Under the pieces are notes generated by a model. It was not told the DNA's origin, ran no database searches, and was given only the letters and a program-made list of their open reading frames with translations. From the NCBI GenBank assembly GCA_010672965.1, contig JAAHFN010000004.1, positions 1-64,000 of the forward strand: a stretch of 64,000 nt of DNA, given 5' to 3'. This stretch comes from Oscillatoria sp. SIO1A7 (GTDB lineage: Bacteria > Cyanobacteriota > Cyanobacteriia > Cyanobacteriales > Laspinemataceae). Shown here piece by piece: positions 17,925 to 33,010 of the stretch (positions are counted from its first letter, which is position 1; each line of letters opens with the position of its first letter). The translations under genes were made by a program, and so were the position numbers.

Positions 17925-18049
17925 AAAGAGGTTCAACTTGTCTTGAGGGTACTTGAATAAGTATAAATCGGGGATTGGGGATTGGGCATGGGGCATGGGG
18001 CATGTTCGCATTGGGCATGTTCGCATTGGGAGGAGTGAATAATTAATAC

Positions 18050-18135
18050 AGGACTTACACATAGGATCTAAATGTAGGGGTAGCACTGCGCAGCAACTCC
18101 TATATATAGACTTAAAACTGATGTGCGTAAGTCCT
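18050..18135. mobile_element. MITE family C, copy 3
   Basis: An 86-base element, ends AGGACTTACACA and TGCGTAAGTCCT, with inner TGTAGGGGTAG. It separates leuD from ndhM, together with GGGCATGGGG repeats. Confidence 0.7.
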
Positions 18136-18204
18136 ATAATAGTTAATAGCTCATCAGTCCCCTTGTCCCCCCATGCCCCATGCCCCATGCCCCATGCCCA
18201 AATT

Positions 18205-18750
18205 TTACTTGGCCGCAATCATTCCAGTTTGGCGAGCATAAGCAAAAATACCCCCAGCAGCAATGACCGGGCGGACTTCACCCAAGGGATTTAACTGATA
18301 GGTCTCGCCAAGAGTATGATTGGTAAGAATATTGTCGTCTAAGTCGAGAGAAACTTCTTGGCCGGTTTCAAAGCGATCGCACAACCTTTCGGGAGATTCA
18401 ATAGGATACAGTTCCCCAGTGGCAGAGCAATTGCGGAAAAAGATTCTGGCATAGGACAGAGCAACCACAGCCTCGACCCCTGACGCCCCCAAGGCGATCG
18501 GTGCGTGTTCCCGGGAGGAGCCACAGCCAAAATTTTCCCCAGCTATAATAATCGGGTAGGACGTTTTCATTTCCCCTGGCAGCACAAACTTTCCGTAGCG
18601 GTCTGGCAAACCCACTAAAGCATAACTGCCCAATTTTTCATACTCATCCGGCTTCGAGGGCACCAGGGTCAGATATTCAGCCGGAATGATTTGATCGGTA
18701 TCGATGTTGTCATCTAACACAAATATTTTTCCCGATATTACTTGGCTCAT
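18205..18750 (-). CDS. leuD: 3-isopropylmalate dehydratase small subunit
   Basis: A 181-residue LeuD, the swivelling domain of the 3-isopropylmalate/2-isopropylmalate isomerase of leucine synthesis; works with LeuC, not in this window. Markers: DDNIDTDQIIPAEYL near the N-terminus, the substrate loop AGENFGCGSSREHAPIAL, and ARIFFRNCSATGELYPIE. Length fits the shorter archaeal/cyanobacterial form. The start at 18750 is followed by a standard MSQVISGKIFVLDDN. Not linked to other leu genes. Confidence 0.95.
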   Translation of the reverse strand: MSQVISGKIFVLDDNIDTDQIIPAEYLTLVPSKPDEYEKLGSYALVGLPDRYGKFVLPGEMKTSYPIIIAGENFGCGSSREHAPIALGASGVEAVVALSYARIFFRNCSATGELYPIESPERLCDRFETGQEVSLDLDDNILTNHTLGETYQLNPLGEVRPVIAAGGIFAYARQTGMIAAK

Positions 18751-18839
18751 AAGTCAGTTGCCTGTTTTCCCTGAAATATTTTTTACTTCTGGTGCATTGA
18801 CCGTTTTGTTATCTTAACTTGGCATCGGGCATAGGAAGA

Positions 18840-19105
18840 GGCAGGGGAGACCGGAAGACCGGAAGACCGAGGGACCGAGGGACTGGGAGACTTGGGGACA
18901 AGAGGACTTGGGGACAAGAGGACTTGGGGACAAGAGGACTTGGGGACAAGAGGACTTGGAGATCTGGAGACAAGAGGCTTTCCCCGGGTCTCCCAGTCCC
19001 CCGGTCCCCGGGTCTCCCCGTCTCCCAGTCCCCCGGTCCCCGGGTCTCCCCGTCACCCGGTCCCCAAGTCCCCAAGTCCCCAAGTCTCCCCCGGTCTCCC
19101 ACGCC
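18840..19105. repeat. Tandem GGGGACAAGAGGACTT array facing a C-rich array
   Basis: The first part (about 18860-18970) has four near-perfect copies of a 16-base unit (GGGGACAAGAGGACTT). The second part (18975-19095) repeats CCCAGTCCCCCGGTCCCCGG and related words, on average complementary to the first. The whole can form a very long imperfect hairpin between leuD and the divergent gene at 19224. Frames across it are open but meaningless. Apart from this, 18751-19223 has no gene. Confidence 0.8.
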
Positions 19106-19223
19106 TGCCCCAAGAGCGATCGCAAAAAACCGATATTCTATACTCTTAAACGTAAGTATATATAGACGCCAGCCAGTGTTGACTCGTAATCAATTGCCAA
19201 ACCAAACGACAACGATCCATCCA

Positions 19224-20135
19224 ATGGATGATATTGCCAGACAAGCTCGCCAAGGTAGCGTGGCCGCGATCATTCAAATCCTGAATCAAAAACTGGCACC
19301 TGACGAGGTGAGAACCCGTGCGGTTTTCTCCGGTAATATATTGCAACTGCTGTGCGAGGCCGCAGAAGAAGAGAAACTGGAGCGAAATAAAATTATCGAT
19401 CGCGTTAGAGAGATTCTAGAGGCAATATCACCCCGGGGCATTAGGCGAGTCAACATCAACTGCCGCCTCGTTAGAGAACAGCAGTTGCTTTGGCTAGAAG
19501 AAATTAATCGAGATCCAGACAATCAACTGCTTTGGTCCGAGCAGATTGTCTTGGCCAAACCGAATATTATCAAGCGGCTGCTCGAAGATGCTAGAAATCG
19601 TCCCAAAGAACAAAGCAAGCAAGCTTTTGCCCCAGCAGAGATAGCCGCCGATCGCCAAGTGCGCCAGTCGAACCAATTATGGCACGGCTTTCTCTGGGGT
19701 GCTGCAGCAATGTTGGCGATCGTCGCCGCTTGGGGATTTTACCGGCAGAGCCTCGGGCCAATTGCCAGCGGAAAAGTCGTCGAACCTAAGCGATCGCTGC
19801 CAGCTTCCGCACCAGCAACAACACCGGCAGCAACTCCAGCAGCAACTCCGGCAACAAAAGCTCCTGAAGCCCCAGCACCAGACCAATCTACAGAAAACTT
19901 TGCTCGCGCCGTGCGACTGGCCCAACAAGCCGTGGAAGAGGGCAAACTGGCTAAAAATGCCGATGATTGGTTGGTTATCGCTGCCAATTGGGATCAGGCT
20001 TCCAAGCTCATGGCCTCGGTTTCGCAGGAGCATCCCGAATACGCTACGGCTCAGAATCGAGCAGCACTTTATCGCAGATACAGCCAGAATACTCAAGCAA
20101 AAGCGGAGAAATTGCGCAAAACTCAGAATAAATAA
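19224..20135 (+). CDS. Conserved membrane protein with Pro/Ala linker
   Basis: A 303-residue protein. The N-terminal cytoplasmic part (1-150), MDDIARQARQGSVAAIIQIL...RRVNINCRLVREQQLLWLEEI, looks like a conserved cyanobacterial domain without known function. A membrane helix follows (about 153-171, LWGAAAMLAIVAAWGFY), then a linker of APATTPAATPAATPA repeats, then a helical C-terminus (FARAVRLAQQAVEEGKLAKNADDWL) that resembles a TPR-like unit. Start ATG 19224; an in-frame extension upstream is repeat DNA. Its stop TAA coincides with the target duplication of the family A MITE at 20136. Confidence 0.8.
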   Translation: MDDIARQARQGSVAAIIQILNQKLAPDEVRTRAVFSGNILQLLCEAAEEEKLERNKIIDRVREILEAISPRGIRRVNINCRLVREQQLLWLEEINRDPDNQLLWSEQIVLAKPNIIKRLLEDARNRPKEQSKQAFAPAEIAADRQVRQSNQLWHGFLWGAAAMLAIVAAWGFYRQSLGPIASGKVVEPKRSLPASAPATTPAATPAATPATKAPEAPAPDQSTENFARAVRLAQQAVEEGKLAKNADDWLVIAANWDQASKLMASVSQEHPEYATAQNRAALYRRYSQNTQAKAEKLRKTQNK

Positions 20136-20264
20136 GGGGCTTGCGCAGAAATAAAGTACCAGTTATACAGTCGGATTCTGCGATCGCCGTTCGGGCTGAG
20201 CGGAGTCGAAGCCTGCCCTCCGGGCATAGCCCAAGAATCGGTACATTATTAACTTCCAAGTCCC
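20136..20264. mobile_element. MITE family A, copy 3 (TAA duplication on a stop codon)
   Basis: A 129-base copy, inverted relative to 11906: left end GGGGCTTGCGCAGAAATAAA, right end TTAACTTCCAAGTCCC. Target duplication TAA at 20133-20135 and 20265-20267; the left TAA is the stop codon of the upstream gene. The core CGTTCGGGCTGAGCGGAGTC is the same as at 34-57. It contributes the whole spacer between two convergent genes. Confidence 0.87.
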
Positions 20265-20279
20265 TAAGAACAGCCAACA

Positions 20280-21674
20280 TTACCCCAAATATAACCCTTT
20301 AATATAACTTTTCATCGCTGGCGATAGAATGTAAGCGGTTTCTTTTTTTTCAATAAAGCAACGTCGCCATAGAGATTGCAAGGCATTTAGTAAATCTGAA
20401 GCGGGCATACCTCCATTGCCGAGCAATTTTGCCCGCTTGACTGGCTGAGATTGTCCGGCCAAAAAGGAGATAACTTGTTTCTCTATTTCTGATAAACGCT
20501 CCCACTGCTGCTGCAAACTGTCTTTCACATCTTCTGGCAGCAATAGGTTATCTTCTGGGTTATCTTCCGGCAATAGATCGCTTAAGCAGATGCCCACTTC
20601 TTCAATCAAATTGGCGACGCTTTTTAACCAAAAGGGGTTTCCTTGGTATCGGTGCATTATCTCTTGCAAGTTATCGATTTGTGCCAAGCCACTATCTGCG
20701 AGTAATTCTCTGCCGGCTGCCCGGTCTAAACCAGCTAAATGCAAGGTGCGAATCTTGTTGTTTTTGCTTTGAGCTTGAGTAATTTCTCTGGGTTGCTCCC
20801 AACCTATTAAGAGAAGGCAACTTTGGTGGTATAATTTTAAGATTTGTTTGAAAAAAGAGCGATATCCTTCACAAGCAGGCTTAAACTTACCCGCTAATTC
20901 GCCGCTAGCAAAAATATTGTGAAGGTCATCCAATATTATTAAGCAACGGTGTTTTTGTAAAGAATTAGTTAGTGCTAAAGAGTTTTGGCTACTTGCAGAT
21001 CTGTCTGGCTTTTCTGGTGGCGATAAAATCTGAGTGATACGAGCCTGTAGTTCGGGAAAAGTAGGATATGCCTCTAGATTGCACCAAATAACATAGTCAA
21101 ACTCGTCTTTTATTTGTTCGACAAGTTGCACGGCTAAGCTGGTTTTGCCGATCCCGCTGATGCCAGCGATCGCTATCAGGCGAGAGCGTTCTTGGATAAT
21201 CCAGGTTTTGAGGGTTTCTAATTCGGAGGAGCGATCGTAGAAAGCACCCAATTCCGGCATCTCACTTAAATCTTGATGTAAATTCTGCTGCTCTTGAGGA
21301 TTAGACGTTTGCTCGTTTGCCCGGTTTGGATCTTGTAAATCGGAGGGGCTGTAGCGCGGTTCTCCACAAATATTGAAACTATCGCTAATATCGCGCACAA
21401 AGTTTAAAACATTAGAGTTTTGCAACCTTTCCATTGCCGAGCGAAAGTTCGTTTTACTGATTTCTTCGCCTAACTCTTCCGAAAGTAGCCGCCATAATTC
21501 CGACCCCGCATTCCTCGCGCCACTCTCCGAACAGTCGAAATCCTTAGCTATTTTCTTGTATGTTTGACGTTCTAGGGTCCCTAGCAGCACCGCCTTTTGT
21601 AGATCGTCCAGGTGCTGGCCAGTCTTGGTAAAGACTATCTCATCTGCTAGATTTAACATTTCCTTAAGACTCAT
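20280..21674 (-). CDS. NB-ARC (STAND) ATPase with vMAP-type N-terminal domain
   Basis: A 464-residue protein from ATG 21674 (a frame from 21734 would add 20 residues). Residues 1-85 (MSLKEMLNLADEIVFTKTG...YKKIAKDFDCSESGARN) match the HTH-like N-terminal domain of cyanobacterial vWA-MoxR-associated proteins. An NB-ARC ATPase follows, with Walker A in AGISGIGKTS, Walker B CLIILDDLHN and a winged helix near VISFLAGQSQPVKRAKLL. It ends there, without the WD40, TPR or pentapeptide sensor repeats many relatives carry. STAND proteins are signal switches, several in antiphage or cell-death roles. Divergent from the small genes at 21926 and 22689. Confidence 0.85.
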   Translation of the reverse strand: MSLKEMLNLADEIVFTKTGQHLDDLQKAVLLGTLERQTYKKIAKDFDCSESGARNAGSELWRLLSEELGEEISKTNFRSAMERLQNSNVLNFVRDISDSFNICGEPRYSPSDLQDPNRANEQTSNPQEQQNLHQDLSEMPELGAFYDRSSELETLKTWIIQERSRLIAIAGISGIGKTSLAVQLVEQIKDEFDYVIWCNLEAYPTFPELQARITQILSPPEKPDRSASSQNSLALTNSLQKHRCLIILDDLHNIFASGELAGKFKPACEGYRSFFKQILKLYHQSCLLLIGWEQPREITQAQSKNNKIRTLHLAGLDRAAGRELLADSGLAQIDNLQEIMHRYQGNPFWLKSVANLIEEVGICLSDLLPEDNPEDNLLLPEDVKDSLQQQWERLSEIEKQVISFLAGQSQPVKRAKLLGNGGMPASDLLNALQSLWRRCFIEKKETAYILSPAMKSYIKGLYLG

Positions 21675-21794
21675 GGGGCTAAGAAGACGCAACCTTTTTG
21701 TATATGGTATCGCATTTTTGACTTTTTGCCACATTTTAGTACAAAGTTAGACTTTTTATGGAAAAAGCAATTACAAGATTATACGTTTTTAGAC

Positions 21795-21823
21795 TTGACA
21801 AATTTTTCTTTATAAGCAATACT
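21795..21823 (+). promoter_or_regulatory. Possible sigma70-type promoter for the 21926 gene
   Basis: TTGACA at 21795-21800, a 17-base spacer, then AATACT at 21818-21823, in an AT-rich stretch. It would give a leader of about 95 bases before ATG 21926. Based on pattern only. Confidence 0.35.
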
Positions 21824-21925
21824 GAGGTAAGCATTAATCTGTCTTTCCACTCATTGGTAAGGGCGTGGAATAAATAACTCTTCAAGCAATGCCGAGCTAG
21901 TAATCCTCATCAAGGATAAAATGTA

Positions 21926-22543
21926 ATGAATTACGGTAATTCTCTACAATCTAAACTGCACCAAATGCTACCTCAAGACAGCAGCGCCGATCGAGATAGC
22001 AAGGTAAAAACGATTAAAACCCCCTCACTGAAAATTGTCAAAAACACGGTCGTCTTTGGTAATAGCGTCTATCAAATACGAAATATATGTACTGTCGAAC
22101 TGGCCGATCTCACAGAAACATATGCAATTAATCAAACTGTGCCGACGTGGTATTGGTCTCTTGTTGGGCTTGGATTTATTCTTCTTTTCTTCTATGGCAT
22201 TGGCATTGTTATTCTTATATTCGCAGGTTGGCTGTTTTGGCAGCATAGCAACTTGGACAAAAGTAGAACAGATGAGGAATATGGGCTAAGAATTGGAATG
22301 AGTTCAGGGGAAGCAGTAATATTAACGTCTAGCAAAAAAGAATTTGTTATTGATATTATTGTTACTTTATACGATATTATAAATAAGGATGACGCCCAGG
22401 CTTTAGAGGTTAATTTTGAAAGATTTAATATAGAGAAAATTGAAGATAAATCTATTAAAATAGAGAAATCTTATGGCTCATCTGTTGTCTCTGGAAAGGT
22501 TGGAGGCGATGTCGTCAATATGATAAGTAGGCAGGCAAAATAA
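21926..22543 (+). CDS. DUF6232-like membrane protein
   Basis: A 205-residue protein. Residues 35-70 (SLKIVKNTVVFGNSVYQIRNICTVEL) give the pattern of the DUF6232 family, followed by two closely spaced membrane helices (about 72-110, WYWSLVGLGFILLFFYGIGI...GWLFW). A cytoplasmic part then repeats the strand-rich pattern (GEAVILTSSKKEFVIDIIVTLYDII). The C-terminus SYGSSVVSGKVGGDVVNM has a Gly/Val motif also seen at the start of the next protein. The region is more AT-rich than its surroundings. Likely co-transcribed with 22689. Function unknown. Confidence 0.7.
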   Translation: MNYGNSLQSKLHQMLPQDSSADRDSKVKTIKTPSLKIVKNTVVFGNSVYQIRNICTVELADLTETYAINQTVPTWYWSLVGLGFILLFFYGIGIVILIFAGWLFWQHSNLDKSRTDEEYGLRIGMSSGEAVILTSSKKEFVIDIIVTLYDIINKDDAQALEVNFERFNIEKIEDKSIKIEKSYGSSVVSGKVGGDVVNMISRQAK

Positions 22544-22688
22544 ATTGTATATTATTACTGTCCACAGAGCATGGAGCTTTACCCTATACTGGACTTGGGA
22601 TTCGATAAGTAGGGAAATGCACAATTTATTTTGCACGGGTACTTATAGACTAAGGGCAATTTTTTTTACATGATAAGAGTAAGAGTAA

Positions 22689-23066
22689 ATGACAGAAGAT
22701 AAGTCAATTAAAGTAGGCAGCGTAGTAGGTGGTGTCATCAATGCAGGGGAGGTGGGTAGGGACATTATTGTGAGTAGCAGCAATAATGTCCCAGCAGAAG
22801 AAAAAACAAATCTTGCCGAGGCTGCCGCCGAGATTCAAGAGCTTTTAGATCAACTATCTCAAACCTACCCAACAACAACGGCTGCCGAGAAAGCAAGCGT
22901 TGCTGCAAAGGCTGTGGAAGAAATTGAGAAAAAGCCTGACACAAAGGGCAAAATCATCAAAGCTTTGAAGGCAGGCGGTAAGGCTGCCTTAATGGAGCTT
23001 ACAAATAATCCCGTTGTCAAAGTTTTGCTCCCAATGCTTGAGAGTCTTTTAGAAGATGCTAAGTAA
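22689..23066 (+). CDS. Small soluble protein with VGGVINAGEVG motif
   Basis: A 125-residue protein. It starts KSIKVGSVVGGVINAGEVGRDIIVSSS, a short beta-rich motif found next to many STAND or effector-associated proteins in cyanobacteria (from memory). The rest is helical: EEKTNLAEAAAEIQELLDQL, AEKASVAAKAVEEIEK, then a hydrophobic LKAGGKAALMELTNNPVVKVLLPML that could insert into a membrane. It follows the DUF6232 gene by 145 bases. It might be a partner or effector of the divergent NB-ARC protein; this is inference. Confidence 0.7.
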   Translation: MTEDKSIKVGSVVGGVINAGEVGRDIIVSSSNNVPAEEKTNLAEAAAEIQELLDQLSQTYPTTTAAEKASVAAKAVEEIEKKPDTKGKIIKALKAGGKAALMELTNNPVVKVLLPMLESLLEDAK

Positions 23067-23288
23067 GCAAGGCCGCGATCGCATTGCAACTCCCAAGCTC
23101 TGCGGCATTAGGAATACTCCAAATTATCTGACTGAGCATTTGGGTAAATAAGACAGAGTTATAGAGTCGGCGATCGCACCTTCTTTTGGTAAGTGCGATC
23201 GCCATCCGTCCAAGCATTTCTTTGGTATTTGGCGCGAATGCCAAGTGCGATCGCTAATGTTAATTTTTTGGTCTCGTCAGTTTAGCGG

Positions 23289-23500
23289 CTATGGTTCTTG
23301 AGAATTAATAACCAGAGGTTCGATCTGAACGAGTATTTGAGGAATTTCACGCTCGATTACGTCCCAAACAATATCCAGGTCAACTTGGTCGTACTCATCA
23401 ACAATTACCGAAGCGCATACCTGCCAAGCTTCGCCAAGGTATTTCTGGATGTTGCTCGCGAAATTGCATCGATAGGCGACTCTAATTGCTTGCTGCTATA
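23289..23500 (-). pseudogene. HepT-like (DUF86) toxin remnant with frameshift
   Basis: On the minus strand two frames together give the C-terminal half of HepT: REQHPEIPWRSLAGMR, then after a one-base shift VIVDEYDQVDLDIVWDVI and EIPQILVQIEPL before the stop at 23289. HepT proteins are HEPN RNases neutralised by a MNT nucleotidyltransferase. The Rx4-6H motif expected around GMRN-x-x-VH is destroyed at the shift, the N-terminal half is missing and no mntA is nearby. It is therefore dead. Confidence 0.72.
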
Positions 23501-25012
23501 TTATTTGCGACGCTTACGGCCACCTCTTCTAGTTAAACCAAATCCATACATATAAATTTTTGGCATATTAACGCGCCTATCCATGCTAATTTCAACGATT
23601 CCTAGTTGCAGCAAATACTCTAAAACTTCCGCAGGTTTTGAGCTTGGAGGCTGTTTTCCCGGTAGTTCGCTCCATTCTGTATTTTGCAGGGCTTCTAAAA
23701 ATGTTGCTTCGGCGATCGGGAGATTGAACCCTTTGAGACTGGTCTTAAGCGCTTCCAGCCAAGGATATGCCTCTTGGGCCAGCTCCTGAATGCGATCGTC
23801 AGAAGTCTTAATCAGCGCTTCTTGTAAATCCGAGGGTTCGAGGAGTTGGCTCCCGGCTAGAGCTGTGGGGTCAAAATGTTCTAATCTCCGCTCTGCTGCT
23901 AAAGAAAACAGCCTTAAAAAAGTCCGGGGAGTAATTCTGCTTTGAGTATCCTGGAGGTGGTTCGGTATCCAGCTATATACATATCCTTGTATGGGGCTAT
24001 TACCCATAAACTTACCAATCATTTTGTTTATCGCAGATTCCAGACGGGATTCATCCGCTGATGCCAGCCACCCTAGGGGCGAATCGCTATCGGAGATTAG
24101 ATTGGGAACCAGCTCTTCTAAATAATCCCTCATTTCCGCTCCAGAATTGGCCAAACGTTTGACCAGCAATCGATACAACCATGAAGCATCCCACTCCAGA
24201 CGAACCTCGTGAGCCCTGAGCTTAGAGGCATCGGGAAATCCTAAAAAATCCTCTCGAAACAGGTCTGTGCGTAAAAAAATCTTGGGTCGGATTCTTTCCC
24301 AGCGACGCCAGCTTAAGACCCAAAATGCCAGCAGTTCGCGAATGGGAGCTACTAGCTGGTGGTCAAGCGGTAATATTCGGTCTAGTTCGTCATAAGTAAC
24401 GAATAACCAGCGATCGCTCTCAACTAATTCTTCATCCAACCGATCCAGAGCATAGTTGAGCTTTTCCAGGTTTTGGCGAACCAGAGGCAACCACTCCGAT
24501 AGTAGGGGTAAGCGCTCCTCGACCAAAGCTTCTTGAACTTCCTCCGGTATCTTATCAAACCAGTATAAATTTAATTTTATGCTCTCTTCCCCAAGCAATG
24601 CCCCCAACATCAAACCAATCCAGAATGCCCGCCAATCGATTCCCTCGGCATCTTTCATCCGGTTTTCTACAGTATCTGGACTTGGCAAGTTTTTTCTTTG
24701 CTGTCCGGTTAGACCAAAACCCGCAATCCATATTGTTTCCTCCAAAGGGGGCAATCCCCGAATATTCATGTTTTTTACCAGGGTTTTACGCCCTGTTTGA
24801 TTGGCTAGCAACCGGAATAATTCTGTCTTGCCTACCCCGCGCCCTCCCAATACTAGCAGGCAGTCGCTTTCCAAGGCTATACGATAATCGGGTACGGGCA
24901 TATTTTTTTTCAAAAAAAGACTTTCATCATTGCCTTCATGCTCTGCATTAGAGCGTCCTGGTGCGATATTAGCGATCGATTCTAGCAGTGTTTTTTTGTC
25001 AAAATTGTTCAT
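23501..25012 (-). CDS. P-loop ATPase, third gene of HEPN/KGGVGR operon
   Basis: A 503-residue ATPase from ATG 25012, which overlaps the preceding stop as ATGA. Walker A is GGRGVGKT at 56-63, Walker B-like WLFVTYDELDRIL near 215. The region around 285 (RIRPKIFLRTDLFRED) may hold an arginine sensor. The C-terminal half is helical, with a winged-helix-like end (EVLEYLLQLGIVEISMD) and a basic tail RRGGRKRRK. It resembles P-loop ATPases found with ParA-like KGGVGR proteins in cyanobacteria. No nuclease motif seen. Probably acts with the two genes upstream; a role in conflict or stress signalling is inferred. Confidence 0.75.
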   Translation of the reverse strand: MNNFDKKTLLESIANIAPGRSNAEHEGNDESLFLKKNMPVPDYRIALESDCLLVLGGRGVGKTELFRLLANQTGRKTLVKNMNIRGLPPLEETIWIAGFGLTGQQRKNLPSPDTVENRMKDAEGIDWRAFWIGLMLGALLGEESIKLNLYWFDKIPEEVQEALVEERLPLLSEWLPLVRQNLEKLNYALDRLDEELVESDRWLFVTYDELDRILPLDHQLVAPIRELLAFWVLSWRRWERIRPKIFLRTDLFREDFLGFPDASKLRAHEVRLEWDASWLYRLLVKRLANSGAEMRDYLEELVPNLISDSDSPLGWLASADESRLESAINKMIGKFMGNSPIQGYVYSWIPNHLQDTQSRITPRTFLRLFSLAAERRLEHFDPTALAGSQLLEPSDLQEALIKTSDDRIQELAQEAYPWLEALKTSLKGFNLPIAEATFLEALQNTEWSELPGKQPPSSKPAEVLEYLLQLGIVEISMDRRVNMPKIYMYGFGLTRRGGRKRRK

Positions 25013-26400
25013 GGCTTCCCCTCGTTTTCCTCGTTCTCTTTTTTCAGATTGCGCCCAACAATCCGACAGAGTCGCGAGGCCAGCTCTTGATAAGGTGAGC
25101 CTGTCAAGATAGAAACCAGCCCCGAGACGCGACTCGCTTCCCCCAGACTTGAATCCAGAGGGAATAAAGCGATTTCTCGACGCAGCTCGCTCTGCCATTC
25201 CAGAACTACCGGCCAAAAAGGTGCCTCCCTATCGTTGGAGTTGGGAATTGCCCGATCTTGGCTGATATAATAATTTTCTTGGAAAACGCTATAAGCTTTC
25301 TCCCTAAACTCCTGCAATTCTGGCTCTCTTTCCCTAGTTCCCAATCCAGGAGCCATACTATGAATCAGCAATACGGGTAGAGGTTCGTCCGCCAGAGGTC
25401 TTGCGAGGCGACGGAACACCTGCGTTAGTCCCGCCCAGCTTTGTCTGGATTGGGTGCCGAATACTACTGCTGCGTGAGAGAGATTGGCGATCGCCAATCC
25501 CCCCAAATCGTGGAATCCGGCTCTAGCGTCTAGCAAGATAACATCCAGATTTCCCGCCGCGCTCGCCAGCTCCTTGAGCATCCCTCTGAGATTCTTGGCA
25601 AGTTCTTTATCGACCAAATTCTGGACATCCAGTCTGGCCAATTTTTCCAGGTATTTTTCATCTATATAACCCGCTGGCAGCAAACGCAATGGTTCCCCCT
25701 CTCCCCGCAGCGCTTGCTCTCCGAGCGATCGCAGGTGGGTGGCTAAGCGCCAATTTTTTTGGATTCTCTTTTCTAGCAAATAATCAATAACACCAGTATT
25801 GTCTCCAGTATCTGCCGGGAAGATTGCGGCTAGACCGGGAGCTTCCAGATCCAAATCGACCATCGCAACCCGGTGACCGTTACGAGCCAGAGTCAAAGCT
25901 GTCGCCACCAGAGCAGTCGTGCGACCAACGCCGCCTTTAAAGGAAAAAAAACTGACAACTGCTGCCTGATGTCCCGCGTACACAACCTCCTGCGGCCAAG
26001 GTGGATTCCCTGCATCCTCAGTTGTCCATGCGTGTTTGGCAACATGGCGTTCTAGTATGTACCAGCGAGGCGAAACAGTAGCATCATCCCACTCTGCCGG
26101 TACTCTTTCCTCTTTTATTACCTCAATCAATGCTTTATAACCATCTCCCTCCCCTTCTGGCAGCCAGATGTCTTCGCCGTAGTATGAACCGAGTTTTTCG
26201 GCCAGTTTTTGATGGCAATTCTCGATAGCCTCTTCTGCTAGCTTCACTTCCTCTTGAGGCTCGATAAAAACCCTAATTTTACCGTAAATGTCCCTTATGA
26301 TTGCGATCGCCTCTACATATTTTGTCAGATTATTTTCTATATCTGGTTCGCTAAATAACTCTCTTACCTTATCAAATGTTTCGCCGAAGGTAATGTCCAT
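25009..26400 (-). CDS. ParA/MinD-like ATPase with KGGVGR motif
   Basis: A 463-residue protein. Residues 1-145 are an unassigned helical N-terminal region (VRELFSEPDIENNLTKYVEAI...), then a deviant-Walker ATPase: FKGGVGRTT at 154-162 (ParA family normally KGGVGKT, so the catalytic second lysine is Arg), VDLDLEAPGL at 181-190 and ILLDARAGFHDLGG as Walker B. The signature lysine of KGG is kept. Substitution of the P-loop Lys suggests altered hydrolysis or a nucleotide sensor. Overlaps the next gene by four bases and follows the HEPN gene by three, so one operon. Confidence 0.85.
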   Translation of the reverse strand: MDITFGETFDKVRELFSEPDIENNLTKYVEAIAIIRDIYGKIRVFIEPQEEVKLAEEAIENCHQKLAEKLGSYYGEDIWLPEGEGDGYKALIEVIKEERVPAEWDDATVSPRWYILERHVAKHAWTTEDAGNPPWPQEVVYAGHQAAVVSFFSFKGGVGRTTALVATALTLARNGHRVAMVDLDLEAPGLAAIFPADTGDNTGVIDYLLEKRIQKNWRLATHLRSLGEQALRGEGEPLRLLPAGYIDEKYLEKLARLDVQNLVDKELAKNLRGMLKELASAAGNLDVILLDARAGFHDLGGLAIANLSHAAVVFGTQSRQSWAGLTQVFRRLARPLADEPLPVLLIHSMAPGLGTREREPELQEFREKAYSVFQENYYISQDRAIPNSNDREAPFWPVVLEWQSELRREIALFPLDSSLGEASRVSGLVSILTGSPYQELASRLCRIVGRNLKKENEENEGKP

Positions 26401-26403
26401 ACT

Positions 26404-26856
26404 CTAAAGTTCTCTACTGGAAATTCTGCCATCTAAAATCAGTCCGGGTAGAATCTCGCTATAGATTTCTGCCGCTCGCTCTACTGCTGCATCTGCTTCG
26501 CTTTTGCTCCAACGGCCAGACTTGGCATAGCGTTGCTCTGGATTCCAACGAGCCAAAGCAGTTCCACTTGTGCGCGACCCTGGAAATTGTCCGCCAAGCA
26601 CGGGATAAATTACCCGCAGCCTTTCCATTGCTTTCCCTTCCAGGTTCTTTAGATCGTGGCCGTATTTTTTGGCTGCCGAAGAGTCTCGATCTAGATATAT
26701 CTCCACTAAGACCTTGAAGGCACATTCCGCCACATAGCCTGCCAGATAAACCGCGTTGTCCCAGCGCTGCTCCGATAGCAAAATCTTGGCATCATGTAAG
26801 TGTCTTGCCCCTGCTTGAGCAAAAGATTCTTCCGATCTTTTCATAGTTATAGTCAT
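26404..26856 (-). CDS. HEPN-domain protein, first gene of operon
   Basis: A protein of 150 residues from 26856, or 146 from the in-frame ATG at 26844. The HEPN bundle is visible: ARHLHDAKILLSEQRWDNAVYLAGYVAECAFKVLV, then YGHDLKNLE and a C-terminal helix AAVERAAEIYSEIL. The Rx4-6H RNase motif is not evident (the His of GHDL has no Arg at the right spacing), so binding rather than cleavage is likely. The first ATG lies inside the end of the MITE at 26852, so 26844 is the likelier native start. Three bases separate it from the ParA-like gene. Confidence 0.8.
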   Translation of the reverse strand: MTITMKRSEESFAQAGARHLHDAKILLSEQRWDNAVYLAGYVAECAFKVLVEIYLDRDSSAAKKYGHDLKNLEGKAMERLRVIYPVLGGQFPGSRTSGTALARWNPEQRYAKSGRWSKSEADAAVERAAEIYSEILPGLILDGRISSREL

Positions 26857-26948
26857 TTCAATAAGTTTGATACAGTTACGATCGCCCTTATTGTAGGGGC
26901 GATTCGCGAATCGCCCCTACATCTTGTCTCATTTTTATTTGAAATGAC
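26852..26948. mobile_element. MITE family E upstream of the HEPN operon
   Basis: A 97-base element with 10-base inverted ends, GTCATTTCAA at 26852 and TTGAAATGAC at 26939. Its centre is a perfect hairpin TGTAGGGGCGATTCGCGAAT and on. Inserted directly at the 5' end of the operon at 23501-26856, it must separate the genes from their original promoter or supply a new one. Confidence 0.7.
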
Positions 26949-27063
26949 AATACTTTTTGTAGCAACAGCAGAGGCTCTGGCGCTTGCCCAATGCCCAATT
27001 CCCCGATACCAATGCCCAATGCCCAATGCCCAATGCCCAATTCCGCTCTTCCCTTAACAGATA

Positions 27064-27372
27064 TCAATCTTCCCAGCGATATCTAATTTCAAACCCTCGC
27101 AGGTTTTCTGGTTGCTCGTATTCTACTTCCACATTTTCTACTGCTGCCTCTGGCGGCCCACTGTTGCACCAGAACACCATCTTTTCAACAGCCTCTTTAG
27201 TCCCTTCAAAAACGGCCTCTACTCGCCCGTCTTTAAGATTGCGCGCCCAACCTTGCACCAGCAAAGTCTTAGCTTTCTGTTGGGTATAAAAGCGATAGGA
27301 AACCCCTTGCACTTTTCCAGAAATAAAAACATGGGCGCGAACTCTTTGAGGGGGCGGTGATGGTTTCTCCAT
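27064..27372 (-). CDS. acyP: Acylphosphatase
   Basis: A 102-residue acylphosphatase, hydrolysing acyl-phosphates such as carbamoyl phosphate in the cytoplasm. Signature GKVQGVSYRFYTQQKA contains the catalytic Arg; GWARNLKDGRVEAVFEG contains the catalytic Asn. Both catalytic residues are present. A ten-residue Pro-rich extension (EKPSPPPQRV) precedes the core, so a shorter start is possible but none is seen in frame nearby. Same strand as pcyA, 59 bases downstream of it. Confidence 0.95.
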   Translation of the reverse strand: MEKPSPPPQRVRAHVFISGKVQGVSYRFYTQQKAKTLLVQGWARNLKDGRVEAVFEGTKEAVEKMVFWCNSGPPEAAVENVEVEYEQPENLRGFEIRYRWED

Positions 27373-27431
27373 ATCACTACTAATTTTTCTGGACTTTTTC
27401 TGGACTAATTGCTAATATTGCTAATCGCTTG

Positions 27432-28202
27432 TTAAACAAAGGTTTCTGGTACGTCAAACAAAACAGTAGTCATATAATATTCTGCCCACTCCGCGCCAAA
27501 AGCTTTTTCTAGAACCCGACGGGTCTTATCATTTTTGCGTTGTTTGGAGCAATAGTTGCGTTGGCCTTCTATAATTTCGGAAAATTCTTCTGGGTTAGCA
27601 GGTTGGGTAGCGATCGCCTGCCTACAGTGAATTTTCAAATAAGACTCTACTCGGGAAAGGAATAATGCTTCTTCCTCTTCGCCATTAGGCCGCACGAACA
27701 GGCAAAATTCCGAAAAGATATTGCCCCAAGGTGGCAGTTCGCGAGGTTCCAAGAATTTGGCTGGCCCTAGTTTTTCCAAACTATCGCGATAGGCTTCTGG
27801 TAAAGTGCCGCTTGGACCGACAGGAGAAATGTCGGCGATCGCCGCACTAATCTGTCCTCTAGCTCCCACCAAATCGGTCCCAAACATCGGCAGGGGATAG
27901 ATAGGCTTCGGGAACATCACGCAATGCAAAATATCCAGACTTTTCCCAATTTTTGCCATTTCTATATGCAGCTTGCGAAATTGGGTAGTCTGGTAGCAGC
28001 GATTTTCAATTCTAAGTCTTTCTCCCTCCAAGCGACCTTCAACATACCCCAACTCCGCTGGTAGAGGGTAGGGTTCTAGGTCCAAATAACGCTGCCACAC
28101 TCCCTCAATCGTATCCGCCAGGTGACGGATGAGGTAGTGTTGTTGGGTACGCACTGAGGGAATTGAAGTCAAAGACACAGTTCCAAGCTCTCGCAAAATC
28201 AC
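27432..28202 (-). CDS. pcyA: Phycocyanobilin:ferredoxin oxidoreductase
   Basis: A 256-residue PcyA, which reduces biliverdin IX-alpha to phycocyanobilin using ferredoxin, giving the chromophore for phycobilisomes and phytochromes. Family motifs: ELGYVEGRLEGERLRIENRCYQTTQFRK, DILHCVMFPKPIY (His), AAIADISPVG (catalytic Asp), ELPPWGNIFSEFCLFVRP and KNDKTRRVLEKAFGAEWAE. Known members begin MSLTSIPS, so GTG 28178 (VSLTSIPS) is a likely alternative start; 28202 gives eight extra residues. Downstream of cphA on the same strand with 240 bases between. Confidence 0.96.
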   Translation of the reverse strand: MILRELGTVSLTSIPSVRTQQHYLIRHLADTIEGVWQRYLDLEPYPLPAELGYVEGRLEGERLRIENRCYQTTQFRKLHIEMAKIGKSLDILHCVMFPKPIYPLPMFGTDLVGARGQISAAIADISPVGPSGTLPEAYRDSLEKLGPAKFLEPRELPPWGNIFSEFCLFVRPNGEEEEALFLSRVESYLKIHCRQAIATQPANPEEFSEIIEGQRNYCSKQRKNDKTRRVLEKAFGAEWAEYYMTTVLFDVPETFV

Positions 28203-28446
28203 TTTGAGGACATTATCCGACCGTCAAAATTGCGGTCTCTACCATCATATACACCTTTGCGATCGCAAGGGAGCGTCTTTGCTCCTGAAATCGCATTAGT
28301 CGCAAAATCCACCTGCTCCAAGCAGAGGTAGATTTTGTATCCCAGATCGCATAACGGTCCAATGGGCTTGCTTAACCGCTTGCTTAACCTCATTACTTAT
28401 TGTCGGCCGAGGAATGCCTTGGGTTTATCTGGGGGCTTCTTCAAAT

Positions 28447-31107
28447 CTAGGCTTTTCCACTAGCGCCATTTTGGGGAATGAGTCCTTCCCCTACGGGCTT
28501 CCTGCTCTGGACCAGACTTAGCGATCGGCTGACGCTCTCGGGCAATATCACCACCAAGCTACCTCGCGGTGCCTCGTCTAGCGCTGTATCGATCGCCTTT
28601 GTCTCGTCAAGAATCGACTCGTACTTTTTCTTGCGATCGGCCTCTTCAATTCCCTTACAGATCAGATCTGCAGCATCTCCGCGACTACGGCCCCGAGTAT
28701 CGTCATCTTCCTTAACAATAATCCGGTCGAAGATTTGCGCCGACAATTTACCCAGAGTAATAAAATCTTCATCGCGGCGATCTCCTGGTCCGCCCACCAC
28801 GCCAATACTTTCTCCAGGCCAATTCCGCACAAAATCCCCCAGAGCTTTGTAGCCAGCAGGATTGTGGGCATAATCTATCAGAGCATGATACTCTCCCAAA
28901 TCGAACAGATTCATCCGCCCGGGGGTTTGCTCGCTCGATGCCTGAAACGAAGCCAAGCCAGCACGAATTTCCTCTATTTCCACCCCTTGGGCAAACGCAG
29001 CCAGACAAGCTGCCAAAGCATTAGCAATCATAAACGGCGCCCGCCCTCCCATTGTCAGGGGCACATTGACCGCCTCCTCAATCCGCAAAGTCCAATCGCC
29101 ATTAAGAATAGATATATAACCATCCTCATAGACCGCAGCCAAACCACCTTGGCGAGTGTGGCTCCAAACGACTTCGTTATCCGGGTTCATCGAAAAGTAA
29201 GCCACATTAGCCTTCACCCGTTCCGCCATTCCAGCCACTAGAGGATCCTCTGCATTCAGAATCGCATAGCCTTGCGATCGCACCGTTTCCGCCACTACAC
29301 TTTTCACCCTGGCCATTTGTTCGATAGTTTCGATATCGTCTAGTCCCAAGTGGTCTGCCGATACGTTCAAAACCACTCCGACATCGCAATAATCAAAAGC
29401 CAAACCCGAGCGAATGATTCCTCCCCTTGCGCTTTCTAGAACCGCCACTTCCACTGTTGGGTCTTTGAGAATTAGCCCCGCGCTCTGGGGACCTGTATTA
29501 TCCCCTTTCTCCACCAAATAATCGCCAATATAGGTGCCATCGGTGGTTGTAAATCCTACCGTGCGACCTGTCTGCTTCATAATGTGAGCCAGGAGCCTGG
29601 TAGTGGTAGTTTTTCCATTAGTGCCCGTTACGGCCAAAATGGGAATCCGGCTAGGCGTTCCCGGCGGAAACAGCATATCCAGCACTGCTGCCGCAACATT
29701 TCTAGGCAATCCCTCGCTCGGACAGACATGCATCCGAAATCCTGGCGCAGCGTTTACTTCTACAATTACGCCATCGACTTCTCGCAGGGGTTTCGATATA
29801 TCCGGCGTTACTATATCCAGACCGCATATATCCAAGCCGATAATTTTGGCCACTCTTTGAGCTAGCCAGATGTTTTCTGGATGGATTTCGTCGGTTTTAT
29901 CTACCGCAATCCCCCCCGTACTTAAATTGGCAGTTGCCCGCATATATGCGATTTCTCCCTTCCGCAATACCGTTTGCAGGCTATAGCCTTGACTTTCTAG
30001 GAGTTGTTCGCTTTTGCGATCTACCTTTATCTTGGTCAATACATTATCGTGACCTTCTCCTCGGCGCGGGTCTCTATTTGTTTCCTCTATCAATTCTTGA
30101 ATCGTAGCCGACCCATCTCCTATTACCCTCGCTGGCACCCGTTCGGCTACCGCAACAACTTGGCCGTTAACGACCAATACCCGATGGTCTCGCCCCGTAT
30201 AGTAATGTTCGACAATTACAGATCTAGTTTTGGAGGCAGCACTCGCGGCATCGTAGGCTTCTTCTGCTTCTTCCCACGATTTGATATCGATCGAGATTCC
30301 CCGCCCGTGGTTGCCATCAAGGGGTTTAATGACAATCGGATAGCCTCCCAAATCTTCTATAGCATCTTGCAGTTCGTCGAGGTATTTAATAACGGCCCCT
30401 CTAGGAACTGGCACCCCAGCATCAGCCAGAATTCTCTTGGTGCCTTCTTTATCGCAGGCTAGTTCGACTCCTAAAATACTGCTGTAATCGGTTAGCGTGG
30501 CCTGGATTCGCTTTTGATTTGCCCCTTGTCCTAGCTGGATTGTAGAACGAGCGCTTAAGTGGAACCAGGGTATATCCCGATAGTGGGCTTCTTTGACGAT
30601 AGTTTCTGTAGAAGGTCCCAAAGAAGCTTCCGCCCACAATTCTTTCAGGTCTTTGATATCTCTATCTATTTCTGATTGGGGATATTTTCCAGTATCCACT
30701 ATGCTTCGACACAAGCGTACTGCCGCTCTTGCTGAATAGCGGCCTGCTTGCTCGTCTATATGTTCTATCGCCACCTGGTACACCCCAGGACTTGCTGTTT
30801 GGCGGGTGCGACCAAAGCCCACCCTCATTCCCGCTAGCTCTTGGAGTTCGAGAGCGACATGTTCTACTACATGACCCATGTAGGTCCCCTCTCTAATTCG
30901 CTCTAGGAATCCACCTCGCACCCCCGGGGAACAGTAGTGTTCTACCAAACTCGGCAGCACTTCGGTTATTCCCTCGTAAAAACCAGGGATTTTGTTGGTT
31001 GGCTTCTCGGCCAAGTCTTCTAAGTCCAGACGCATAAGGACGAGTTTCTGGCGTCTGACGCTCCAGTAGTTTGGGCCGCGCAATGTTTGGATTTTAAGTA
31101 TTTTCAT
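28447..31107 (-). CDS. cphA: Cyanophycin synthetase
   Basis: An 886-residue CphA, which makes the nitrogen store cyanophycin (poly-Asp with Arg side chains) from Asp, Arg and ATP without a template. N-terminal domain 1-160 (KILKIQTLRGPNYWSVRR), ATP-grasp domain about 200-470 (PIVIKPLDGNHGRGISI; EVNAAPGFRMHVCPSEG), Mur-ligase-like domain from about 490 with P-loop GTNGKTTTTRLLA, ESARGGIIRSGLAF and DYAHNPAGYKAL. All typical motifs present; length normal. cphB lies 159 bases upstream on the same strand, as in most cyanobacteria. Confidence 0.98.
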   Translation of the reverse strand: MKILKIQTLRGPNYWSVRRQKLVLMRLDLEDLAEKPTNKIPGFYEGITEVLPSLVEHYCSPGVRGGFLERIREGTYMGHVVEHVALELQELAGMRVGFGRTRQTASPGVYQVAIEHIDEQAGRYSARAAVRLCRSIVDTGKYPQSEIDRDIKDLKELWAEASLGPSTETIVKEAHYRDIPWFHLSARSTIQLGQGANQKRIQATLTDYSSILGVELACDKEGTKRILADAGVPVPRGAVIKYLDELQDAIEDLGGYPIVIKPLDGNHGRGISIDIKSWEEAEEAYDAASAASKTRSVIVEHYYTGRDHRVLVVNGQVVAVAERVPARVIGDGSATIQELIEETNRDPRRGEGHDNVLTKIKVDRKSEQLLESQGYSLQTVLRKGEIAYMRATANLSTGGIAVDKTDEIHPENIWLAQRVAKIIGLDICGLDIVTPDISKPLREVDGVIVEVNAAPGFRMHVCPSEGLPRNVAAAVLDMLFPPGTPSRIPILAVTGTNGKTTTTRLLAHIMKQTGRTVGFTTTDGTYIGDYLVEKGDNTGPQSAGLILKDPTVEVAVLESARGGIIRSGLAFDYCDVGVVLNVSADHLGLDDIETIEQMARVKSVVAETVRSQGYAILNAEDPLVAGMAERVKANVAYFSMNPDNEVVWSHTRQGGLAAVYEDGYISILNGDWTLRIEEAVNVPLTMGGRAPFMIANALAACLAAFAQGVEIEEIRAGLASFQASSEQTPGRMNLFDLGEYHALIDYAHNPAGYKALGDFVRNWPGESIGVVGGPGDRRDEDFITLGKLSAQIFDRIIVKEDDDTRGRSRGDAADLICKGIEEADRKKKYESILDETKAIDTALDEAPRGSLVVILPESVSRSLSLVQSRKPVGEGLIPQNGASGKA

Positions 31108-31266
31108 AACTGTCCCGGAGGGTCATCCTTTCAACGGAAGCAATGCAGGCTAAAAATTTACTTTCAGGGTTCTTAGTCCCGGATAACTGTTCGTGGCGAA
31201 CATTTTTTCCTAATGACGGTGGTTCTCGTGCCTTATTAGGACCACTTTATTAACTGTTGGACCTAC

Positions 31267-32130
31267 TTACTTGCGTTCTCCATTTTCGGGATTAATGATA
31301 CTTCTATTGTTTAGGTCGTAGCGATCGCCATGACACAAGATATGGAGGCGCAAATTAAACAGGCTTAGGGGCTCGGAAGCTCCCACAAAGGCTTCGTTGG
31401 TATAGGACAACTCCCCGGTGTCTATAACAGTCACCGCTCCTTTGCCTATAACTTGGACAATGCCATCGCTTTCTACCATGGCACAGGTATCTTCATCTAT
31501 TCCCATGCCAATTCTGTCTGGATGGGAGGCGATCGCCGATAGCAAGCGCCCCATGCGATTTCTGTTATGAAAATGTTGATCCACAATCAACTCTGGCAGG
31601 ATACCCAAGCCCGTTGCCATATCCACCAAAGAGCGGTTGGGAGACTCGCCGCTGCCGCCACCGGCGATCATATGATGGCCCATTACTGCGGCTCCCGCAC
31701 TGGTTCCAGCCAGGACAATACTGCCCTCGCGTACTTTAAGCCGTAATTTTTCCATCATGGGAGTATCCGCTACCAAGGCACAGAGTCTGAGTTGGTCTCC
31801 ACCTGAAATAAACACCCCCGTGCAGTCTTCCAGGTACTCTTGCCATTTCGGGTCTTCCCCCTCAGAGCGATCGCGGATGTCAAACACTTTAATATCCTTG
31901 GCACCCATATCCTCAAAAATTCCGGTATATCTGCTGCTCACAGCCCTTGGCTCTCGCGAAGCGCAGGGAATTATTGCCATCCGGGCCCTATTACCTCCAG
32001 ACCGGACAAAAAACGCTTGCAGGATTTCGCGGCCGTGAACTTTATCTTCAGCTCCGCCAATCACCATTACAGTATTTTTTAGTGCTTGGGGCATCTTTTG
32101 TTTCAGGATTTTTGATTCTAACTGCTGCAT
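31267..32130 (-). CDS. cphB: Cyanophycinase
   Basis: A 287-residue CphB, a serine peptidase (S51) that cuts cyanophycin to beta-Asp-Arg dipeptides. Markers: VMVIGGAEDKVHGREIL, IIPCASREP, FISGGDQLRLC, catalytic Ser in LAGTSAGAAVMGHHMI, and VDQHFHNRNRMGRLLSAI. A start at an inner Met (MPQALKN) would fit other members better than 32130, which adds 12 residues. First gene of the cphB-cphA pair; the two should be co-regulated by nitrogen status, but I did not identify an NtcA site. Confidence 0.97.
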   Translation of the reverse strand: MQQLESKILKQKMPQALKNTVMVIGGAEDKVHGREILQAFFVRSGGNRARMAIIPCASREPRAVSSRYTGIFEDMGAKDIKVFDIRDRSEGEDPKWQEYLEDCTGVFISGGDQLRLCALVADTPMMEKLRLKVREGSIVLAGTSAGAAVMGHHMIAGGGSGESPNRSLVDMATGLGILPELIVDQHFHNRNRMGRLLSAIASHPDRIGMGIDEDTCAMVESDGIVQVIGKGAVTVIDTGELSYTNEAFVGASEPLSLFNLRLHILCHGDRYDLNNRSIINPENGERK

Positions 32131-32217
32131 CGACGGTATTGCTATTGGCTGTCATTTGCCTCGAACGCGCTTCAATGGCGCATTTCAAAAATTTATTTGA
32201 ACCCTTTCAAACCTTAA

Positions 32218-32244
32218 GGGATTTCCAAATAAATATTTCTCCTT
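32218..32244. mobile_element. MITE family B, truncated end
   Basis: GGGATTTCCAAATAAATATT and the next seven bases match the inverted right end of the 2591 element, preceded by TAA. Similarity then stops, so only a terminal fragment remains. Confidence 0.65.
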
Positions 32245-32722
32245 GACTTTAGGTAATGGACCCTCGTGTTGGTTACCCGCCACCCTCCTAGGGAATTTGG
32301 AGCAATCCATATTCTCGATAGAGCGCCATAGGAACAACTATACCTATAAGGCGCGGCGCGTTTTTAGGTCAAGAGAAAATAAATCTCGAAACAGGCCCAT
32401 GAGAGAATAAATCAGGGCTTATAGTTTCAAGCCATGCCGCGATCGCGCAATGATTGATAGTGAATAATCAATTTAAACAATTAAGGAGACCTTTAGCAAA
32501 TTTACATGATTGGCCCCCCAATACCCGCTTTTAGCTTTTCATAGGACTCAAGTTCTCTTATAGGCTCGGAGTCTAAATAATATAGTGTCTGGTCAGTTTC
32601 CGGTACGGCCTACCCGTTTGATGCAGAATCAGGTTTTACACGATCGCGCTCCAATTCCCATTCGCTTTCCTAAAATTTGCCGTAGCAACATTTGTATTGC
32701 GTCATTGTCGCCACAGCTAGAT

Positions 32723-32809
32723 AGGACCTTCCGCATTAACTCTAAATGTAAGGGCAAATGACGATTCGCCCCTACATTTAGCGTACATAAGGCAATTTCC
32801 GTAAGTCTT
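32723..32809. mobile_element. MITE family C, copy 4 (diverged)
   Basis: Left end AGGACCTTCCGCA, right end TTTCCGTAAGTCTTA, inner GTAAGGGCAA...TTCGCCCCTACATTTA. About 87 bases; both ends diverged from AGGACTTACGCA. Confidence 0.5.
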
Positions 32810-33010
32810 ATATTTCCTACTGTCTTTTAAGCTAGGCGCTAGCAATATGCATGTAATTGAGTAAAATTCCCCATTCCCAATTTCTCCTGAGCCTCTTGTT
32901 GGCGGAGCCTGCCCGCTCGCTAGGGCATAGGGCTGAGCCGGTCGTAGGCGTAGCCCGCCCTCCGGGGCGTAGGACCCCCATTACCCATTCCCACCTAACA
33001 TAAAAGTGCT

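Follow-up and report, generated by a model that had tools for sequence, protein, structure and literature searches.

The locus considered here raises the question of what is done by an operon in which a gene for a HEPN protein (A) is followed by genes for a ParA/MinD-like ATPase with an altered P-loop (B) and for a second P-loop ATPase (C). The operon lies in a 64,000 nucleotide (nt) stretch at the start of contig JAAHFN010000004.1 of Oscillatoria sp. SIO1A7 (assembly GCA_010672965.1), referred to here as the window, and its coordinates are given in Table 1. In the initial annotation, made from the sequence alone, the three genes were put forward as an undescribed conflict system. The reading preferred here, with a probability of about 0.6, is that the operon is a PDC-M28 defence module in which C gates the putative HEPN ribonuclease (RNase) A, B being probably hydrolysis-dead on this reading.

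The three proteins match entries of PADLOC-DB 2.0.0 one to one (A to PDC-M28A at 1.4e-16, B to PDC-M28B at 1e-63 and C to PDC-M28C at 1.9e-74), so that the combination is not the undescribed one that had been put forward. In the window the genes are adjacent on one strand in the order A-B-C, and the relatives share this order; that it is the defining trait of PDC-M28 is an assumption and does not come from PADLOC's rule file. According to the available portion of PMC11811056, PDC-x entries are unpublished candidates of Payne et al. A full-text literature search, with supplements and preprints outside it, gave, among the papers listed, none on the A-B-C trio, the mechanism of PDC-M28 or a phage-defence experiment. 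Judged by sequence, the operon is a cyanobacterial representative of PDC-M28, a catalogued defence candidate for which this search gave no mechanism. The coordinates bear out the layout first reported, three minus-strand genes joined by a 3 nt gap between A and B and a 4 nt overlap (ATGA) between B and C, as well as the KGGVGRTT motif at residues 155–162 of B and a 503 amino acid (aa) C protein with a basic tail. The length of C is counted from an ATG; the mechanical open reading frame (ORF) runs on upstream to a TTG. Close spacing is also seen in the relatives, where the A-B gap is 0, 3 or 6 nt in 24 out of 29 measurable loci and the B-C overlap is 4 nt in 9 out of 29, with the nearest possible start codon assumed in these measurements.

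The A-B-C module recurs across several bacterial phyla. When eight aligned C proteins were used as the query against genome contigs, 33 loci were found, comprising 31 cyanobacterial records, Tumebacillus and a Lachnospiraceae bin. B is located upstream of C in all 33, as a split gene or remnant in L072, L076 and L096 and cut by the contig end in L094. A is matched in 31, of which 28 have it at nearly its full length, L074 and L095 have part of it and L096 has a chimeric remnant; L076 and L094 are the two loci lacking an A match. L095 and L099 have a split C. These counts, with the plasmid records described below, uphold the expectation that the three genes travel together. Decayed copies, with A, B or C split or missing, make up five of the 33 loci (L072, L076, L095, L096 and L099), as expected for a dispensable or costly module.

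In the phylum of Tumebacillus (Bacillota), 9 out of 249 genomes, Tumebacillus included, have an M28C match, five of them strong. The strong matches besides Tumebacillus are two A-B-C sets (G343 and G484), a B-C pair without a matched A (G508), and a set of A and C with a B whose P-loop part is missing (G382), where type I methylase and specificity genes directly adjoin. An M28C match (E ≤ 0.001, weak and fused matches included) is present in 35 out of 292 genomes of the phylum of the window, and many of these matches are single open frames of approximately 850–950 aa that hold both B and C. Of 28 loci examined, 19 encode B and C as one frame, and A adjoins 18 of these, the exception being L048. 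In two genomes a B-C fusion lies approximately 3 kb from a set of all three genes (L086, 8181–16812, and G039:C152, 76724–84911).

A plasmid search with C homologues of the kind found in Sphaerotilus gave 20 records. All were examined except NZ_CP100190.1, which is a Burkholderia record similar to two of the others. The order A-B-C is present in 13 of the 19, from Pseudomonadota, Actinomycetota and Cyanobacteriota, with weak A matches in two plasmid loci (L128 at 1.5e-4 and L136 at 9.7e-4). The Calothrix plasmid is counted both here and among the 33 scan loci. A near match to the operon carried by an Enterobacter plasmid is absent from the E. coli genomes searched.

In 3 of the 13 A-B-C plasmids the trio is inside a type 2 BREX operon. 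It is bordered in each case by pglX on one side, and on the other by a DUF6079 gene in Sphaerotilus, a 'phage resistance protein' gene in Thiodictyon and pglW in Streptomyces NBC_01334. All three BREX copies have pglW and pglX, with pglZ and brxD downstream of the trio. The Thiodictyon pglX is annotated in two pieces and the Sphaerotilus pglW is short, therefore intactness of all three BREX operons is not claimed. That there are two insertion points argues for a separable module. In the available part of PMC12839542, HEPN domains in BREX are described as typically standalone, and 'ParA' as a whole word, 'MinD' and 'SIMIBI' are absent from that text. Placement in BREX, together with the PDC-M28 match, supports the conflict-system character that the initial annotation had suggested.

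In the motif of B, Arg160 stands in place of the P-loop lysine. The initial annotation suggested that such a variant could be a nucleotide- or phage-sensing switch controlling HEPN activity, which would still be conjecture. This had been seen as a peculiar variant, however the idea of a local oddity was rejected, as the arginine characterises a named family, NCBIfam NF047398 ('KGGVGR-motif variant AAA ATPase'), which B matches at 184.1 bits against a cut-off of 90. All 73 motif-bearing ORFs related to B have the arginine, and the motif is missing from 6 out of 79 matched ORFs; the count includes near-duplicates and the profile itself was built from arginine-bearing sequences. A sequence search of solved structures with B found ParA/MinD/ArsA-type proteins only. 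ParA/MinD-like domains predicted to be inactive occur in other conflict systems as well (PMC7159879, in the part available). From its sequence, B is probably a partner that binds nucleotide and does not hydrolyse it. A tree built from the core of B (69 rows, with five near-duplicate loci left out) groups the cyanobacterial A-B-C copies with Bacillota copies and has plasmid and BREX copies and cyanobacterial fusions in other parts. It leaves several of its deep forks open and brings long branches together, therefore it is used only descriptively.

Other arrangements of KGGVGR ATPase genes were seen as well. The window genome, G000, is assembled as 182 contigs totalling 9.08 Mb and has three KGGVGR proteins above the family cut-off and one M28C match; the named A-B-C relatives closest to it are cyanobacterial. 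It also contains an A-B dyad without C (L159, contig C175, 5918–7728), the B of which does not have the exact KGGxGR pattern; this dyad resembles a HEPN-ParA toxin-antitoxin proposal of 2013. On contig C129 (L160, 5355–7210), a KGGTGR ATPase overlaps a 204 aa partner without a Pfam match, so the family has other partners too. On a Sinorhizobium chiapasense plasmid (L122, 3998–6202), a 734 aa TIR-annotated protein also matches the B profile, at 6.7e-30, and this natural TIR-KGGVGR fusion suggests effector exchange. Annotations of TIR (one plasmid record) and MqsA (three) at other KGGVGR genes were not counted into the A-B-C system.

The annotated gene beside A is a recombinase or integrase on 5 of the 13 A-B-C plasmids (L123, L128, L131, L136 and L140), in the manner of mobile cargo, the plasmid gene table being an incomplete annotation. 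Such neighbours, and the A-B dyad of the window genome, would suit a toxin-antitoxin addiction module with A as the toxin and B, with C, as the antitoxin, kept for the stabilising of mobile DNA and not for phage sensing. The available part of PMC3710099 proposes a HEPN (MAE_18760 family) and ParA/Soj-like dyad as a toxin-antitoxin pair. A simple pair would not need a third conserved ATPase, the fusion of that ATPase to B or the BREX placement, however, and PF05168 is the only Pfam family to which A scores, the Pfam coverage of MAE_18760 being unchecked. An addiction module is considered unlikely.

C matches NCBIfam NF047389 ('P-loop ATPase, Sll1717 family') at 110.3 bits, against a cut-off of 75. 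Its features are a Walker A motif (GxxGxGKT) at residues 56–63, Asp208 and Asp211, and the basic tail at the C-terminus. GxGKT, Asp208 and Asp211 are kept in all 23 selected C sequences, the last Thr of the motif referring to the aligned window set only, with the plasmid relatives outside the count. A sequence search of solved structures did not find a credible relative of C. The predicted model of C has a predicted local distance difference test (pLDDT) score of 82.2 and a predicted template modelling (pTM) score of 0.84. Foldseek matches it to CDC6/ORC at 1.9e-4 and 4.9e-4, with the best TM-scores only about 0.3, and in third place to a chain, subunit unspecified, of the BrxC-BrxB-PglZ structure 9zll at 1.3e-3, also with a TM-score near 0.3. 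A second structure comparison gave an archaeal ATPase (2qen) at Z 12.3 (root-mean-square deviation (rmsd) 5.9, 319 aligned) and ORC at Z 12.0, followed by the plant NLR RPP1 at Z 11.6 and CED-4 at Z 11.2, the residue ranges reaching as far as 493. The predicted model of C resembles ORC/Cdc6 and STAND/NLR ATPases.

The assignment of A as a HEPN protein is favoured by its predicted fold and by its homologue in L159, which passes PF05168, the Pfam HEPN family, at 24.5 bits, whereas A itself scores 19 bits, below the cut-off of 22. A from Sphaerotilus matches HEPN_AbiV weakly, at 16.3 bits against a cut-off of 27.1, and no credible relative of A came up when solved structures were searched by sequence. 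The best structural match of the predicted model (pLDDT 76.9, pTM 0.74) is the HEPN protein AF0298 (2hsb; Z 11.4, rmsd 3.5, 122 aligned), with AbiV (9bj6) at Z 7.5 (rmsd 3.6, 116 aligned); for helical bundles, Z below approximately 13 can reflect mere common arrangement. HEPN titles are on 5 of the first 8 rows of this comparison, and another match, 2q00, is listed as HEPN-T in the portion of PMC3710099 available. Foldseek has HEPN titles on 5 of its first nine rows, with every E-value above 0.1. The model of A resembles the four-helix HEPN fold of the AF0298/AbiV kind.

The residues proposed for the active site of A are R18, D22, E44xxxK48, H67 and R109-Y110. E44, K48, R109 and Y110 are invariant in the 42 selected A sequences, with R18 kept in 41 and D22 in 40. 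R109 is taken to be the arginine of the HEPN motif from our reading of its position, with no superposition. A histidine in the insert, with a hydrophobic residue 2–3 positions on, is present in 36 out of 42. AF0298-type HEPN proteins and AbiV are reported to keep the arginine, typically lose the histidine and have another conserved histidine in the insert between helices 2 and 3, and the Ex3[KR] motif is noted across many HEPN families (PMC3710099, available portion). A appears to be of this type, having the arginine, an alternative histidine in the helix 2-3 insert, and Ex3K.

The canonical Rx4-6H motif is present nowhere in 29 of the 42 A sequences, that of the window included, and at scattered places in the other 13. 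From the lack of this motif at any conserved place it might be supposed that A has no catalytic activity and serves as a HEPN adaptor for the binding of RNA or nucleotide, the damage being done by C (e.g. to DNA via a winged-helix-like part) or by host factors, and the likeness of the C model to the DNA-binding ORC/Cdc6 and TnsC proteins would agree with this. The four invariant residues of A argue against it, as does AbiV, a protein of the same alternative-histidine type whose PDB title is that of an RNase of a two-component antiphage system. A dead adaptor is considered quite improbable.

Under the preferred reading of a gated RNase, C would be an ATP-driven switch and B its nucleotide-binding, non-hydrolysing partner. 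Together they would keep A inactive and read an infection cue, and on this trigger would release or activate A. A would then cut RNA via the alternative HEPN site, made up of R109 with the histidine between helices 2 and 3 and E44xxxK48, and growth or infection would stop through this cleavage. Inside BREX, the trio may be a backup effector. A wider picture, put at a little under even odds, is that of a bacterial alarm of a kind so far unexplained, in which a small NLR/ORC-like ATPase and a ParA-like partner that is obligately degenerate, and in many cyanobacteria fused to it, would act as a unit and gate an alternative-site HEPN RNase, the cassette working alone, as cargo beside recombinases, or plugged into type 2 BREX as a backup suicide effector.

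Proximity to defence genes, a check that had been suggested initially, was assessed in 30 of the 33 loci (L077, L088 and L100 were left aside as near-duplicates) with 206 surrounding genes. The genes were scanned against PADLOC in lots of 105 and 101, with 20 proteins scanned individually. Families matched number 93 and 143 per lot, with tracing among the best 25 listed for each; these outputs and those of the control count families and not genes. Defence-type neighbours were traced within approximately 4.5 kb in at least 8 of the 30 loci. They are Septu (L069), Hma (L073), CBASS (L093), a type II DNA methyltransferase (L096), NsnA-model proteins (L082, L085 and L089) and a B-C fusion of the same kind (L086). 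The large neighbour protein of L098 matches mainly DinG-type helicase and exonuclease models. As a control, 20 random 15 kb stretches from three genomes of the phylum of the window gave 63 PADLOC families from 103 out of 189 genes, including, among the matches listed, PD-T4-6, mad3/mad6 and MkoA, and a Cas12f-type match for the first gene. Several of the listed neighbour families are equally generic (PD-T4-6, Cas12f and TnsB), and PDC-S03 is among those untraced. Defence genes were thus found nearby, however with the control limited to 103 of the 189 genes the enrichment, for which there is no statistic, is only suggestive.

Clustering of the neighbours found no gene family common to more than 5 of the 33 loci. 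This, together with the patchy distribution of M28C matches in the phylum and the copies inside BREX, stands against a housekeeping or segregation role, in which the ParA-like B and ORC-like C would act on the chromosome or plasmid. The resemblances of B to ParA/MinD and of C to ORC/Cdc6, the relatives on plasmids and the common chromosomal site of the operon in five Nostocales loci are what such a role would have in its favour, and it is considered highly improbable.

Several observations weigh against a PDC-M28 defence module that works as described. A defence neighbour is untraced in 22 of the 30 loci, not every PADLOC match having been followed, and the genes around the common site of the five Nostocales loci have a housekeeping appearance. 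Relatives of B were found in none of the phage records searched, and 83 pattern matches to B in viral contigs gave no confirmed case. The canonical Rx4-6H is absent from the A of the window, and 6 of the 42 A sequences miss the insert-histidine pattern, their histidine having other spacing. Six of the 19 plasmid C homologues (L132, L133, L135, L137, L138 and L139, all from Streptomyces or Kitasatospora) have no A or B match alongside in the stretch fetched. This suggests that C can work without them, and these may possibly represent a further use of C. In L072 the B beside an intact-looking A is spread across two frames, and in L154 B and C occur but no A was matched. Neither case suits a strict dependence between A and B, unless it is the product of sequencing errors or of homology that was missed.

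The operon and its neighbours in the window, an NB-ARC gene and a HepT remnant, together span 20280–26856 (Table 1). The initial annotation took the HepT and STAND genes to be broken, and this is so for HepT, whereas the STAND gene is one open frame. Their presence near the operon provides weak support for a defence island; the flanks, from translations by eye, contain what we take to be a leuD-like gene on one side and acylphosphatase, PcyA and cyanophycin-like genes on the other. Two small ORFs at 21926–23066 (+), one of DUF6232 and the other without a family, have common glycine-rich stretches of the GKVGGDVVN / GEVGRDIIV kind. Short ATTGGGC repeats are arranged head to tail at 26990–27050, between the operon and the acylphosphatase-like gene, and overlapping ORFs with GDRGTGRPGD-like repetitive translations at approximately 18810–19160 suggest a second repeat tract.

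Table 1. Positions of the operon genes and of neighbouring features in the window.
Feature	Position	Strand	Description
Gene A	26404..26856	-	HEPN protein, 150 aa, PDC-M28A; proposed RNase effector
Gene B	25009..26400	-	KGGVGR-motif ParA/MinD-like ATPase, 463 aa, PDC-M28B, NF047398; Arg160 for P-loop Lys
Gene C	23501..25012	-	Sll1717-family P-loop ATPase, 503 aa, PDC-M28C, NF047389
HepT-like remnant, C-terminal end only	23319..23408	-	PF01934 24.9 bits, cut-off 23.5; downstream of C, outside the module
NB-ARC/STAND gene	20280..21734	-	484 aa open frame, NB-ARC 48.7 bits; neighbour, module membership not claimed

The conservation of the trio, the fusion of B with C, the loss of the P-loop lysine throughout the family of B and the BREX placement turn a catalogue entry into concrete predictions. 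These concern binding partners, key residues and the backup-effector role, and they also bear on the 2013 idea that ParA-like ATPases control HEPN toxins.

Within PDC-M28, the operon of the window is far from the centre of the model, its C scoring 249 bits compared with 549 for the Sphaerotilus BREX copy and 576 for the Enterobacter plasmid copy. The genes pglW, pglX, pglZ and brxD of type 2 BREX surround distant plasmid copies of A-B-C, whereas no BREX-like gene was seen beside the window operon among the ORFs of 18000–33000, inspected by eye and with no BREX model scan. The likeness to AbiV is in the structural match of A and the alternative histidine in the helix 2-3 insert; AbiV is, by its PDB title, part of a two-component system, in contrast to the three genes here. 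The dyad of a MAE_18760 HEPN protein and a ParA/Soj-like protein (Anantharaman et al. 2013, PMC3710099, in the portion available) likewise has a HEPN gene, for a proposed toxic RNase, beside a ParA-like ATPase gene. The operon differs from that dyad in that its A scores to PF05168, the HEPN-T of that paper, and is without Rx4-6H, and in the presence of a third ATPase.

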